Source: an uncultured Acetobacteraceae bacterium (lineage in GTDB: Bacteria > Pseudomonadota > Alphaproteobacteria > Acetobacterales > Acetobacteraceae). From it: a stretch of 64,000 bases of DNA. Numbering within the stretch: the first letter of the stretch is position 1; the number at the start of each line of letters is the position of its first letter. The stretch covers positions 1-64,000 of the forward strand of contig CAIVPZ010000020.1 in the NCBI GenBank assembly GCA_903907955.1. Direction: 5' to 3'. Below are positions 28,957 through 33,973 of the stretch, one piece after another. A program made the position numbers and the translations under genes. The notes below the pieces were generated by a model, which did not search any database, was not told where the DNA came from, and saw nothing but the letters and a program-made list of their open reading frames with translations.

Positions 28957-29670
28957 TTATCGCGCATCCTCCCGCAACGCCATGGGCGACGTGCCGCGGA
29001 GATTGTCGATCAGGATGTAGCAGCTCACCAGCAGCACCCAGGCGGGGAAGACGAACAGGACCCAGTCGAAATAGCCGCTGCCGAGAAGCAGGAACGCCGC
29101 CGCTGCGTAGCCGAGCAGCGCAATCCACCGCGCGGTGATGCGCGTGCGCAGCGCCAGCGTCGAGGCGATCATCATGAACACCGCTGCCATCTTGAAGGCG
29201 TAGATGTGCATGATGTCGTAGGTGAAGGCCCGGCCGAACGCAAACGCTGCCGAATCGATCAGCACCATCGGTTGTGCCGCATAAGCCCGGATCAGCCCGC
29301 CAGTGGCTGCGGCGGCAACAAAGACCATGCCGAGGAACAGCAACCCGCTGCCGAGGAAGACCGTGGCAAAGAACTGGTCTTCCTGCCGGCCAAGCCGATC
29401 CCGCAGAACGCCGATGAACCACATGAAGGCAATGCCGGCGACGGGCACCAGGTTCAGGGCGAAAGCTACCCGTTTCGCGCTGGTTTCCAGCCAGGCGCCG
29501 GTCTCGAGCGGATCGGCCGGGATCGACAGCCGGAGCAGCCAAAGACTGTAGATCAGCAGGACCGAAAACAGAATTCCGGCGATGGCCGCCGCGCGCGGTG
29601 TTTTCAGCCGGGCACGGATGAGGAGCGCCCTGGCGCCGTCCTCGCTTTCGGAAACGCTGTCCATGAACAA
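28957..29670 (-). CDS. Hypothetical multi-pass membrane protein
   Basis: A 237-residue protein with a short acidic N-terminus (DSVSESEDGA) and about six transmembrane helices: AAIAGILFSVLLIYSLWLL near residue 28, then segments around 70, 105, 140, 165 and 205. YDIMHIYAFKMAAVFMM contains histidine and tyrosine within the membrane. No family was recognised. It converges on the lipoprotein gene at 27795 and stands 138 bp from the channel gene on the same strand. Confidence 0.65.
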   Translation of the reverse strand: MFMDSVSESEDGARALLIRARLKTPRAAAIAGILFSVLLIYSLWLLRLSIPADPLETGAWLETSAKRVAFALNLVPVAGIAFMWFIGVLRDRLGRQEDQFFATVFLGSGLLFLGMVFVAAAATGGLIRAYAAQPMVLIDSAAFAFGRAFTYDIMHIYAFKMAAVFMMIASTLALRTRITARWIALLGYAAAAFLLLGSGYFDWVLFVFPAWVLLVSCYILIDNLRGTSPMALREDAR

Positions 29671-29808: not shown

Positions 29809-30891
29809 TCACTTTGCCTGCGCGAACCATTTTCGCGAGATGTCCTCATAGGTGCCATCGGCATACAGCTCCTGCAGGGCTTCGTTGAGGCGCTTGCGCA
29901 GCGGGCTGCCGCGGGCGACGGCGATGCCGTATTTCACCGGCCGGAACACCGGGCCGACCACCTGCAACTCGCCACCGCCCAGCTTTGTCGCCCAGTACTC
30001 CAGGGTCGGCGCATCGAACACGATGGCCTGGATGGTTCCGTCGAGCAGCCGGTCATAGCCGTCCTGGGCGCTGGCGATGCTGACATAGGGCAAATGCAGC
30101 GCGGTCAGATACTCCGCCGCGATGCTGTTCGGCACGGTGGCGATGGTTTTGCCCGGCAGGTCGCCGGGTCCCTGGATGCTCGAATGCAATTGCTGCACCG
30201 TCAGCGAGGCCGTCACCGTGGCGGTGAACTGGGCCACCAGCACGACGCCGACCACCCACATGCCCACCACGGTCAGCCGCTTCACCGCACCGTTGTTCTC
30301 GCGCTCGCCGTGCTCGCCGGTGGCGATGATCAGCATCACGCCCCACAGCCCTTCCAGCACGCCGCGGAGGTAGCCGCGCTGGAAATACGGGTTGCCGCGC
30401 CGCTCGACCAGCCAGAGCAGGTTGGCCAGCAGCAGCACCGTCAGCGATCCCGCCAGCAGGATTTCGGCATTGGCACGCGTCAGCACCGCCGCGAGCGTGG
30501 CACGCCACGCGCTGGCGCTCTCCGGCCGCACCATGATCTGCAGGCCGGAGTCGAAATACGCCATGGAAAAATCAACCAGCTGCTCGCGTGCGGGCGTCAT
30601 GGCGATGGCCGATATCGCCATGTCCGCCTCGCCGTTGCGCACTGCCTGCAACTGCGCCTCGGCGCCGACCCGGCCGAGATCGGTAACGACCACGCCAGCC
30701 CCCAGCCGCTGCGCCAGCACGGTCCACAGATCCACGCTGAACCCGGCCAGCGGGCCATCCTGCGGCAGCACGAAGGGCGCGATCCGGCCGGTGACGATGC
30801 GCAGCGTTTCCGGCTGGGCGATGGCGGCGGCGGGGGCGGCCGCCAGCAGGGCAAGGCAGGCCAGCGCCCCCCGGACAAGGTGCGGTGCCAT
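29809..30891 (-). CDS. Prokaryotic ionotropic-glutamate-receptor-like channel (GluR0 type)
   Basis: A 360-residue protein in which a periplasmic amino-acid-binding domain is split by a pore module. A signal peptide (1-26) is followed by lobe S1 (28-125), whose TPAREQLVDFSMAYFDSG (99-116) carries the ligand-binding arginine Arg102. TM1 is at about 143-162, the pore loop GLWGVMLIIATGEHGE at 181-196 and TM2 at 206-232. Lobe S2 runs from 235 to 360 with Asp293 in VFDAPTLEYW. This is the GluR0 topology. The filter reads TGEHGE instead of TVGYG, so potassium selectivity is doubtful. It follows the DUF2252 gene by 7 bp. Confidence 0.8.
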   Translation of the reverse strand: MAPHLVRGALACLALLAAAPAAAIAQPETLRIVTGRIAPFVLPQDGPLAGFSVDLWTVLAQRLGAGVVVTDLGRVGAEAQLQAVRNGEADMAISAIAMTPAREQLVDFSMAYFDSGLQIMVRPESASAWRATLAAVLTRANAEILLAGSLTVLLLANLLWLVERRGNPYFQRGYLRGVLEGLWGVMLIIATGEHGERENNGAVKRLTVVGMWVVGVVLVAQFTATVTASLTVQQLHSSIQGPGDLPGKTIATVPNSIAAEYLTALHLPYVSIASAQDGYDRLLDGTIQAIVFDAPTLEYWATKLGGGELQVVGPVFRPVKYGIAVARGSPLRKRLNEALQELYADGTYEDISRKWFAQAK

Positions 30892-30898
30892 CGCGCCG

Positions 30899-32326
30899 CT
30901 AGGCCTCGGTCAACACCTGCACCCTGCCTGTCCGCACGGCCGCCTTCAGCGCCGCGTGGTCGGCCTCCGCCTGGTCGGCATAGGCCAGGGCGAAGCGGCC
31001 CATTGCGGTGTCGAACGTGTCGCTCTTGCCGAGATAGCCGCTGATCGTCCAGGCATCGCCGGCCTTGGCGTGGCTGCGTGCCAGCGCCCAGCCGCAGGCC
31101 TTGCCGAAAATCTCCAGCGTTTCGGCGTCGAACGTCTCGATCAACGGCTTGATCTTGGCGTCGCGCAACTGGCGGACGTAGAATTGCCGGCCGCGCGGGC
31201 CGGTGACCCAGCCCAGGAAGACGTCCGAGGCCGGCTGCGCCAGCCGCTGGCCGATCACCACGCGCTGGCCGTGATGCGGATAGGCGCTGGCCCCGGCATA
31301 AGGTTCCAGCACGGACGCGCAGGCCTCCTTGAACTGCAGGAACAGCGGGTCGTTGCCCGGCGACATGAACAGCCCGATCCAGCAGGCGCGGCCGACGCTG
31401 CCGATGCCCACCACCTTGATCGCCGCGTCCACCAGCCGGTAGCGGTCGAGCAGCACGCGGCGGTCATCGGGCAGGGTCTCGCGGTAGGCGGCCATCACGT
31501 CCTCGAGCTGGGCCATGAAGTCCGGCGCGCGTGCGTCCTCCGGGTGGAAGATCAGCGGCGGCGCATCCTTGATGTGGAGATGTCCGCCGACCATGCCGGC
31601 CAGTTGCGGAAAGTCCTGCGCCGAGGCGGATCGCTCCACCGCCCTGGCGATTCGCTTCCTTACAAGCGCCCGGCGTTCAGGGTCGGAAACCAGGCTGAGG
31701 AAATCATCGGCGTCGATGCGCGCATACCAGACTTCCAGCGGCGCCATCGCCGCATATTCGGCCAGTCGCTTGCGGTAGCTGCGTGCCGCCGCCTCGGCGG
31801 CGTCACGCCCGTCGCCATCGGACAGGCCGTTCGCGCGCGCGGCAAGCACGAACGAGGCGGCGAGACGCTTGACGTCCCACTCCCAGGGGGCCGGCAGCGT
31901 TTCGTCGAAATCGTTGATGTCGAAGATGATGTTGCGCTCGGGGGTGGCAAAGCCGCCGAAGTTCAGCAGGTGGCAGTCGCCGCAGGCCTGCACGCGCAGG
32001 CCGGTGGCGGGCGTATTTGCGAGGTCGGCGGCCATCACGCCGGCGGCGCCGCGGTAGAAGGTGAACGGCGAGGCCAGCATCCGCCCATAGCGCACCGGCA
32101 ACAATTCGGCCAGCCGCTCGGGGTCCGAAGCCTGCAGCATGGCGATCGGGTCGGCGCGGTCCTTGGGTTTCTTCCAGGTGCCGTGCGAAACCCTGGTTAC
32201 CGTCGTGCGCAGCTGCTTGCCCGCTTCCAGCAACTCGGCCGGCGCGCGGACCTGGTGTGCGGGCGCAGGCGCTGGTCCGGACGTGAGAGGGACGACGACG
32301 GACGGCTCTTCTTTGACCTTCGCCAT
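30899..32326 (-). CDS. DUF2252 protein
   Basis: A 475-residue cytosolic protein of the DUF2252 family, which has a kinase-like fold of unknown activity. ACGDCHLLNFGGF (115-126) and IIFDINDFDET (133-143) look like a metal-binding HxxN...D pair, followed by PWEWDVKRLAAS. The C-terminus KAGDAWTISGYLG is also typical. The ATG at 32326 is chosen over the longer frame to 32407. It begins a two-gene operon with the glutamate-receptor-like channel and has an FNR-type site 62 bp upstream. Confidence 0.85.
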   Translation of the reverse strand: MAKVKEEPSVVVPLTSGPAPAPAHQVRAPAELLEAGKQLRTTVTRVSHGTWKKPKDRADPIAMLQASDPERLAELLPVRYGRMLASPFTFYRGAAGVMAADLANTPATGLRVQACGDCHLLNFGGFATPERNIIFDINDFDETLPAPWEWDVKRLAASFVLAARANGLSDGDGRDAAEAAARSYRKRLAEYAAMAPLEVWYARIDADDFLSLVSDPERRALVRKRIARAVERSASAQDFPQLAGMVGGHLHIKDAPPLIFHPEDARAPDFMAQLEDVMAAYRETLPDDRRVLLDRYRLVDAAIKVVGIGSVGRACWIGLFMSPGNDPLFLQFKEACASVLEPYAGASAYPHHGQRVVIGQRLAQPASDVFLGWVTGPRGRQFYVRQLRDAKIKPLIETFDAETLEIFGKACGWALARSHAKAGDAWTISGYLGKSDTFDTAMGRFALAYADQAEADHAALKAAVRTGRVQVLTEA

Positions 32327-32737: not shown

Positions 32738-33973
32738 ATGTCTGCACCCGGCATCCGCACCACCGGCATGGCTGAATCGCCATCGCGCCGGAACCTGTTC
32801 GGCATCGCCATCAGCGCCGGCGCTGCGGCTCTGCTGCCGGGATGCGCCATCCCGGAGCGCGGTCCCGGCGTGCCCGTGGGCCAGGTCGCCAAGGCCAGCG
32901 TATTGGGGCTGCCGAACGAGCGCTTCTTTCCGATGCTGGGCAGTGATCGGCTCGAAGCCGAGTTCCTGGCAGCGGCGGTGCGTCAGCGCCGGGCGCGCGG
33001 CCTGGCAGCGGATGCGCCGCTGCCGGAGATGCAGTTGCTGTCGGTGTCCGGCGGCGGCGAGAATGGCGCGTTCGGCGCCGGGCTGCTGTGCGGCTGGTCC
33101 GACCAGGGTACGCGGCCGGAGTTCGATCTGGTCACCGGCGTCAGCACCGGGGCGCTCACCGCGCCGTTTGCTTTTCTCGGTTCCGGCTACGACCCGCAAC
33201 TGCGCAGCGTCTACACCGACCTGACCCAATCCAACGTGCTCATCAAGCGCAGCATCCTCGCGGCGTTGTTCGACGACGCATTGAGCGACAATTCGCCGCT
33301 GTTCAAGACCATCTCCAGCCACCTCAACGAGGCGATGCTGGCCGGCATCGCGAAGGGCTATAACGAGGGCCGCCTGCTGCTGATCGGCACCACCGACCTC
33401 GATGCCCAGCAGCCGGTGATCTGGAATGTGGGCGCCATTGCCGGCAGCGGACATCCGCGCGCATTGGAGATCATCCGCCGCATCCTGCTTGCCTCCTCCG
33501 CCATCCCCGGCGCCTTCCCGCCGACCATGTTCGACGTGACCCTGAACGGGCAACCGTATCAGGAGATGCATGTCGATGGCGGTGCGTTCGTGCAGGCGTT
33601 CCTGTATCCGGCCGCGATGACGCGCCGGCGCCGCGAGCGGATGAAAAGCGGCGCGCAGGTCGTGCCGGCGATCGCGTATGTCATCCGCAACGGCCGGCTC
33701 GACCCTGAATGGTCGGTGGTGGAGCGCAGCACGTTGAGCATCGCCGGGCGCGCCATCTCCACGATGATCACCGCCAGCGGCTACAACGACGTTCTGCGCA
33801 TCTATAACAATACCAGGAATGACGGGATCGACTTCCGGCTTGCCTATATCGGCGCCGATTTCAACAAGGAACTGCCTGAGCCGTTCGACCAGGGCTTCAT
33901 GCGCGCCCTGTTCGATTACGGTTATCAGCGTGCCCGCAAGGGCTATGACTGGGCAACCAGACCGCCGCTTTAG
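32738..33973 (+). CDS. Patatin-like phospholipase, exported lipoprotein type
   Basis: A 411-residue serine lipase of the patatin family. The oxyanion loop is SGGGENGAFGAG (104-115), the nucleophile is Ser136 in GVSTG and the catalytic aspartate is Asp280 in VDGGAF. The N-terminus has SRRNLFG, resembling a Tat signal, and then the lipobox LLPGC with Cys36, so the enzyme is probably anchored in the envelope. The TAG stop is the first codon of repeat copy B2. No strong ribosome-binding site is seen; an ATG at 32768 is an alternative start. Confidence 0.88.
   Translation: MSAPGIRTTGMAESPSRRNLFGIAISAGAAALLPGCAIPERGPGVPVGQVAKASVLGLPNERFFPMLGSDRLEAEFLAAAVRQRRARGLAADAPLPEMQLLSVSGGGENGAFGAGLLCGWSDQGTRPEFDLVTGVSTGALTAPFAFLGSGYDPQLRSVYTDLTQSNVLIKRSILAALFDDALSDNSPLFKTISSHLNEAMLAGIAKGYNEGRLLLIGTTDLDAQQPVIWNVGAIAGSGHPRALEIIRRILLASSAIPGAFPPTMFDVTLNGQPYQEMHVDGGAFVQAFLYPAAMTRRRRERMKSGAQVVPAIAYVIRNGRLDPEWSVVERSTLSIAGRAISTMITASGYNDVLRIYNNTRNDGIDFRLAYIGADFNKELPEPFDQGFMRALFDYGYQRARKGYDWATRPPL

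Follow-up and report, generated by a model that had tools for sequence, protein, structure and literature searches.

A conserved TGEHGE pore variant in a bacterial glutamate receptor of GluR0 architecture

What kind of pore does a bacterial glutamate receptor possess when another sequence stands in place of its potassium filter? The question is raised by a 64,000-nucleotide stretch of contig CAIVPZ010000020.1 (hereafter, the window), which derives from an uncultured Acetobacteraceae bacterium. Positions 29809-30891 on the minus strand hold an intact 360 amino acid ORF with an ATG start, for which a preliminary description proposed a glutamate receptor-like channel with the pore signature TGEHGE. 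That assignment is confirmed by the ORF list, Pfam, an AlphaFold2 model, and Foldseek: residues 191-196 read TGEHGE and lie gap-free on the TVGYGD filter of relatives. The pore variant is genuine, conserved, and characteristic of one clade, but the architecture that carries it is already known, and no new kind of system is involved. Our favored interpretation, to which we assign a probability of roughly 0.6, is that the gene product is a bacterial amino acid-gated cation channel of GluR0 architecture that has lost potassium selectivity.

The order of parts along the receptor is signal peptide, S1, M1, P-loop, M3, and S2, all encoded on the minus strand. Residues 1-26 (30814-30891) form a probable signal peptide, judged from our reading of the sequence, a hydrophobic stretch followed by an AxA-type end, and from a model helix at residues 3-22. 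The two halves of the ligand-binding domain are defined by Pfam and by alignment to the bacterial glutamate-receptor ligand core 2pyy: S1, residues 28-124 (30520-30810), includes Arg102 and corresponds to 2pyy residues 4-96, and S2, residues 239-358 (29818-30177), includes Asp293 and corresponds to residues 104-222. Between them, the modeled secondary structure places M1 at residues 139-163 (30403-30477), the pore helix of the P-loop at 174-191 (30319-30372), and M3, the second transmembrane helix, at 202-237 (30181-30288), the filter itself being encoded by positions 30304-30321. Within M3, TATVTASLTV may be read as the counterpart of the receptor gate motif SYTANLAAF. Three Pfam families match above their curated cut-offs: SBP_bac_3, split over residues 35-357 (E 5.6e-27), Lig_chan-Glu_bd at 30-123 (E 2.5e-8), and Lig_chan at 151-246 (E 3.9e-8), the last spanning M3; no potassium-pore family was found at E values up to 1. 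NCBIfam gave only matches far below cut-off, the best being GlnH with 111 bits against the 303 needed. The top PDB sequence match is 2pyy (E 2.9e-40), and the delta-2 receptor chain 9nwq covers residues 30-250 (E 3.7e-19). Arg102 and Asp293 are intact, as had been claimed, each pairing with its counterpart in 2pyy; of the 89 aligned rows, 85 have the arginine and 82 the aspartate, position 293 being glutamate in L013 and L074.

The AlphaFold2 monomer was predicted from an alignment of 64 of the 89 proteins, the omitted rows being four from plasmids and 21 that were either near-copies or highly divergent, and has a mean pLDDT of 91.1 and a pTM of 0.77. Its helices are the four given above (3-22, 139-163, 174-191, and 202-237); the filter is modeled as coil with low confidence, the block 191-200 having a mean pLDDT of 69. 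In a Foldseek search of the PDB, glutamate receptors came top, and all 50 of the matches listed are eukaryotic delta, AMPA, kainate, or NMDA chains, the best of those listed being 9nwq (E 7.1e-23, 371 columns). TM-scores by query length are only 0.52-0.68 and rmsd values 4.8-10.7 Å against these whole receptors, so the relative placing of the binding and membrane domains in the model draws no support from the match. A second structural aligner placed 2pyy first (Z 30.4, 39% identity, rmsd 1.6 Å over 212 residues), but the glutamine-binding proteins 8eyz, 9p4d, and 8hnj tie with it within 1 Z, and the ligand-binding domain by itself thus fails to separate a receptor from a transport protein. 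What identifies the architecture as that of GluR0, and bears out the layout originally proposed, is that S1 and S2 surround an M1-P-loop-second transmembrane helix insert and that the ligand arginine and aspartate are both present.

The filter can be placed exactly. In the 89-row alignment, the span from W183 to R205 is 23 residues in all seven rows with GEHG and in all 37 rows with TVGYGD, and TGEHGE therefore falls on TVGYGD position for position. An extra residue inside the filter, as a gap in GEH-GE might imply, is ruled out, since the gap column is shared with the TVGYGD rows and the W183-R205 spans are equal. Comparing TVGYGDK of relatives with TGEHGER here, the substitutions are V to G, G to E, Y to H, and D to E; T191, G195, the following acidic residue (E196), and the basic residue (R197) are kept. 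The potassium filter is thus altered, as the preliminary description had it, but the oddity it saw in two acidic residues and a histidine holds only for E193 and H194. E196 takes the place of the aspartate after GYG, and an acidic residue at this +4 position is common, occurring also in GluR0 and most plant receptors according to the part of PMC12226733 consulted; E196 is therefore ordinary, and what is truly new lies in E193 and H194.

Conservation suggests that the pore is constrained rather than decayed or idle, because its loop is the best-conserved part of the seven proteins that carry TGEHG[E/D]. The longest invariant run among them is LIIATGEHG (residues 187-195), nine residues long, the next longest being four (column-permutation P 0.00115, a statistic that ignores relatedness). 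Invariant positions number 9 of 10 at 188-197, but S1 has only 19 of 97 and S2 35 of 120; around M1 and M3, the counts are 6 of 25 and 14 of 34. The seven proteins are 47-89% identical to the window protein, the closest being L012. Across the ten filter codons, the window gene and L012 differ by one silent change and no amino acid change, set in a whole-gene dN of 0.066 and dS of 0.314; ten codons in a single pair prove little, and the weight rests on the seven-protein comparison. The two glutamates are nevertheless not indispensable because L013, from the same clade, lacks both: its loop, of equal length, reads NGSHGAP.

Over 1948 genome scans, some of them overlapping, seven distinct proteins (19 frames counting repeats) proved to carry TGEHG[E/D]. 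Four are from Acetobacteraceae, namely the window protein, L012 (same genus, 89% identical), and L074 and L075 (same family); the others are from Burkholderia sp. Ac-20365 (L008) and Paraburkholderia sp. C35 (L009), together with L098, which is related only at the phylum level. No further TGEHG protein was present in a draw of 357 genomes from the window's own class or of 340 from other classes, at E values up to 1e-45; six short peptides were also run against 84,980 species genomes, a scan that reaches close relatives only. The clade is rare but spread over distant groups, and this distribution suggests transfer between lineages. A maximum-likelihood tree was made from 89 proteins with the pore columns (residues 183-203) excluded and repeat fetches (L001, L011, L041, L015, L007, L071, L072, and L073) removed. 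All seven TGEHG proteins and L013 form one eight-row clade (bootstrap 100, SH-aLRT 99), within which the window protein, L012, L008, L009, and L098 group together (99/91). The filter is TGEHG in seven of the eight rows and NGSHG in L013. Because a tree lacking the pore columns joins these eight, the filter marks a single lineage with one later change, and the question raised earlier, whether TGEHGE defines a clade, is answered in the affirmative save for that one member. L075 lies at the base of the clade with weak inner support (94/50), and the neighboring L045 carries TVGYGD, again with weak support (87/50). Because of long branches (L016, L095, L091, and L051), the deeper branching order is uncertain, and we rely on the supported clade only.

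TVGYG is the filter of GluR0, and to that extent the preliminary description was right to take it as the prototype for contrast; it is not a rule, in that TVGYGD is missing from many bacterial relatives and a non-potassium group had been described by 2010 (PMC2950845). Filter labels here are patterns of our own writing. In a phylum-wide draw of 398 genomes, the 26 other full-length relatives carry TVGYGD (10), TSGK-type (6), GGF-type (4), TQADQ (2), GPFN (2), TQAG (1), and one other filter; these are 26 of 28 full-length places, as G294 C97, which has no locus, and G311, which is split in two frames, were omitted. The 27 rows from the window's family are TQAG-type (12), TSGK-type (4), GNQT (3), GEHG (3), TVGYGD (2), and other (3), four places without a locus being omitted from family-level sampling. 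A general lack of TVGYGD would be too strong a statement: it is found in 10 of the 26 and in only 2 of the 27 above, yet in 26 of 30 from the family of G392 and in 10 of 12 from that genome's class draw (L053 and nine of L153-L163). Absence of the potassium filter is common yet uneven, and its share varies with the group sampled and the profile used. On the tree, TQAG (13 rows) and GPFN (2) each form one clade, and GNQT (3 rows) is nested within TSGK (15 rows); overall, the nine filter labels require 12 changes, against a minimum of 8 and an average of 48.2 in shuffles. The GNQT proteins L092, L093, and L094 are close to one another; their branch, a long one, lies within the TSGK group, and all three belong to a single genus (g345) whose genomes are 2.7 Mb in size. 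L153 (G1738) has the filter ATQADQMP and one TAA within the search match, possibly reflecting a broken gene or a match overrunning its frame. Two TSGK-type genes, L127 and L128, are plasmid-borne and have efflux-pump genes as neighbors (MdtN and FUSC in Roseibium, an RND adaptor and permease in Paracoccus).

Of known systems, the nearest is GluR0 of Synechocystis PCC 6803, or Group 1 of Ger et al. 2010, with which the window protein shares the S1-M1-P-M3-S2 order, a signal peptide, the ligand-site arginine and aspartate, the lack of both an amino-terminal domain and M4, and the fold of the ligand core (1ii5, Z 28.2 by the second aligner). GluR0 has a GYG potassium filter and conducts potassium (PMC13099474, in the part consulted); here, TGEHGE occupies those six positions, which sets the protein apart from Group 1. 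In the part of Ger et al. 2010 available to us (PMC2950845), 12 receptors with a potassium filter are tallied and 10 without, the latter constituting Group 2, bacterial receptors of the same topology whose P region was not recognized as a known filter. Having that topology, the ligand residues, and no potassium filter, the window protein falls within Group 2 as that paper defines it, a catch-all of 10 proteins. The cyanobacterial L126 (Kovacikia), which has another filter, falls in a different supported set of the tree. Resemblance to the Nostoc punctiforme protein 2pyy, crystallized with L-glutamate, concerns the binding core alone, the one part of that receptor whose structure is solved. With the eukaryotic delta, AMPA, kainate, and NMDA receptors, the fold of the binding and membrane domains is shared, delta-2 being the best whole-chain match listed, but those receptors possess M4 as well as an amino-terminal domain, and their pore is different. 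In cyclic nucleotide-gated channels, a Gly-Glu pair replaces part of the potassium filter, and conduction is cation non-selective with divalent and proton block; the glutamate of TGEHGE is one position off in a gap-free alignment, and the likeness is an analogy only.

How such a receptor might work can be outlined from its relatives. In this receptor family, the bilobed domain closes around its ligand, and the resulting pull on M3 opens the pore. Here, the periplasmic domain would shut on an amino acid held by Arg102 and Asp293, and closure would draw on M3 to open a pore, presumably a tetramer, composed of M1, the P-loop, and M3. The topology of GluR0 is opposite to that of KcsA (PMC13099474, in the part consulted), and if insertion is GluR0-like, the P-loop would therefore enter from the cytoplasm, placing residues 193-196 at the inner mouth. 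Loop charges agree with this orientation only in part under the charge rule: by this topology, the first cytoplasmic loop (164-173) has three basic and no acidic residues, and the second (192-204) has two basic and three acidic. With the first filter glycine replaced by Glu193 and the tyrosine by His194, TGEHGE would break the carbonyl filter; four glutamates and four histidines at the inner mouth would remove the potassium carbonyl cage and, we would guess, could attract divalent cations. The most likely outcome would be a cation channel that does not select potassium and may favor divalent or mixed cations, an ion preference at which we can only guess. Since a small bacterial family has kept the filter unchanged, the protein probably does work as a channel, one that prefers other ions. 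A gate operated by pH, as once suggested, would be guesswork for which the histidine is the sole cue; moreover, a glutamate/histidine ring facing the cytoplasmic mouth, given GluR0-like insertion, does not make outside pH a natural expectation as a direct gate.

A possible partner is encoded 7 nt upstream of the receptor gene, where positions 30899-32326 of the minus strand hold a DUF2252 gene (Pfam E 5.4e-143). DUF2252 belongs to the Pfam kinase clan with its lobes flipped (PMC9758233, in the part consulted), and residues D117, N122, D139, D141, and K333, invariant in seven of seven rows, read as putatively catalytic. An AlphaFold2 model from a seven-row alignment (pLDDT 51.5) was too poor for a fold search. 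The pairing occurs in three genera: in the window and L130 (the L012 locus), in L008 (Burkholderia), and in L009 (Paraburkholderia), the window DUF2252 being 41-42% identical to the two Burkholderiales copies. It is missing upstream of the clade members L131, L132, and L134, and L133 (the L075 locus) starts at a contig edge; in G1108, DUF2252 is on other contigs. For the DUF2252 of the window, identity is 64% to a second G004 copy and 48% to the G1108 gene, which is unlinked, but only 41% to the Burkholderia genes that are linked, so the pairing is either old and lost in places or arose more than once. DUF2252 was rejected as a general partner of such receptors, its profile matching only the window, L012, L008, and L009 among the loci examined; 82 of the 88 receptor loci extend at least 900 nt upstream. 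A functional tie between receptor and DUF2252 protein is possible.

Several alternatives to a cation channel must be weighed against these data. The protein might sense amino acids without conducting, signaling a change of shape to a partner such as the DUF2252 protein, with the loop as a structural plug. Loss of the potassium filter and the presence of a kinase-clan gene (PMC9758233, in part) directly upstream in four loci are what one would then hope to see, but no other stretch is as well conserved in the clade as the loop, which has also kept its exact length, and the gene is not upstream in L131, L132, or L134 and hence is not a general partner; we consider this unlikely, and the non-conducting option of the preliminary description is disfavored. 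Less probable again is that the protein still conducts potassium, the T-G-E-H-G backbone carbonyls preserving the sites of GluR0. Filter length and the flanking threonine, glycine, acidic, and basic positions are those of TVGYGD, and the weakly supported tree neighbor L045 (87/50) retains that filter; however, only the threonine and second glycine of T-V-G-Y-G-D remain, the first filter glycine is glutamate, and no Pfam potassium-pore family appears at E values up to 1.

Least credible, and in our judgment very improbable, is a poreless protein that is anchored in the membrane and binds substrate for an ABC transporter. In its favor, SBP_bac_3 gives the strongest Pfam match, plasmid records label relatives as transporter substrate-binding proteins, and the binding core ties structurally with glutamine-binding proteins. 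Ordinary binding proteins lack the M1-P-M3 insert, however, and the insert here matches both Lig_chan above its cut-off and whole receptor chains; furthermore, no ABC permease or ATPase was found by Pfam among the eight neighboring proteins scanned. The amino acid-gated cation channel thus remains our preferred reading. Of the preliminary interpretation, the layout, filter replacement, and ligand residues stand, and its question about a clade is answered; its view of E196 and its use of the prototype call for correction. A more elaborate version is tentative, and we would not wager on it: an amino acid-gated channel lineage whose Glu-His filter conducts divalent or mixed cations, giving a calcium-like or depolarizing signal, as one of several lineage-specific filters, with some members perhaps tied to a co-transcribed, permuted kinase-like DUF2252 protein.

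If this is true, proteobacterial glutamate receptors would provide a natural series of a potassium pore turning into something else, a conversion that is an assumed step in the origin of neuronal receptors. In the literature consulted, which was seen in part, the bacterial receptor with tested channel function is GluR0, which conducts potassium. A conserved, different filter would allow a change in selectivity to be studied with the ligand-gated architecture constant and minus the extra domains of animal receptors, L013 being a natural control with equal loop length but lacking the two glutamates. Among the papers that literature searches brought up, Ger et al. 2010 alone surveys bacterial receptor pores, and the string TGEHG is absent from the body text of the open-access articles searched (supplements and images lay outside this scope). 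New relative to that literature are the description of the TGEHG filter, its clade, and its constraint, although the supplement of PMC2950845 might already include a member.

Other genes surround the receptor. Just downstream, positions 28957-29670 of the minus strand encode a 237 amino acid protein with no Pfam match; it has a counterpart at 89% in L130 but none in the remaining clade loci that were inspected. Perhaps by coincidence, patatin-like phospholipase genes lie near the receptor gene in the window (32738-33973, plus strand) and in L130, and a different patatin-like type, with DUF3734, lies near that of L132 (5622-6794, plus strand).
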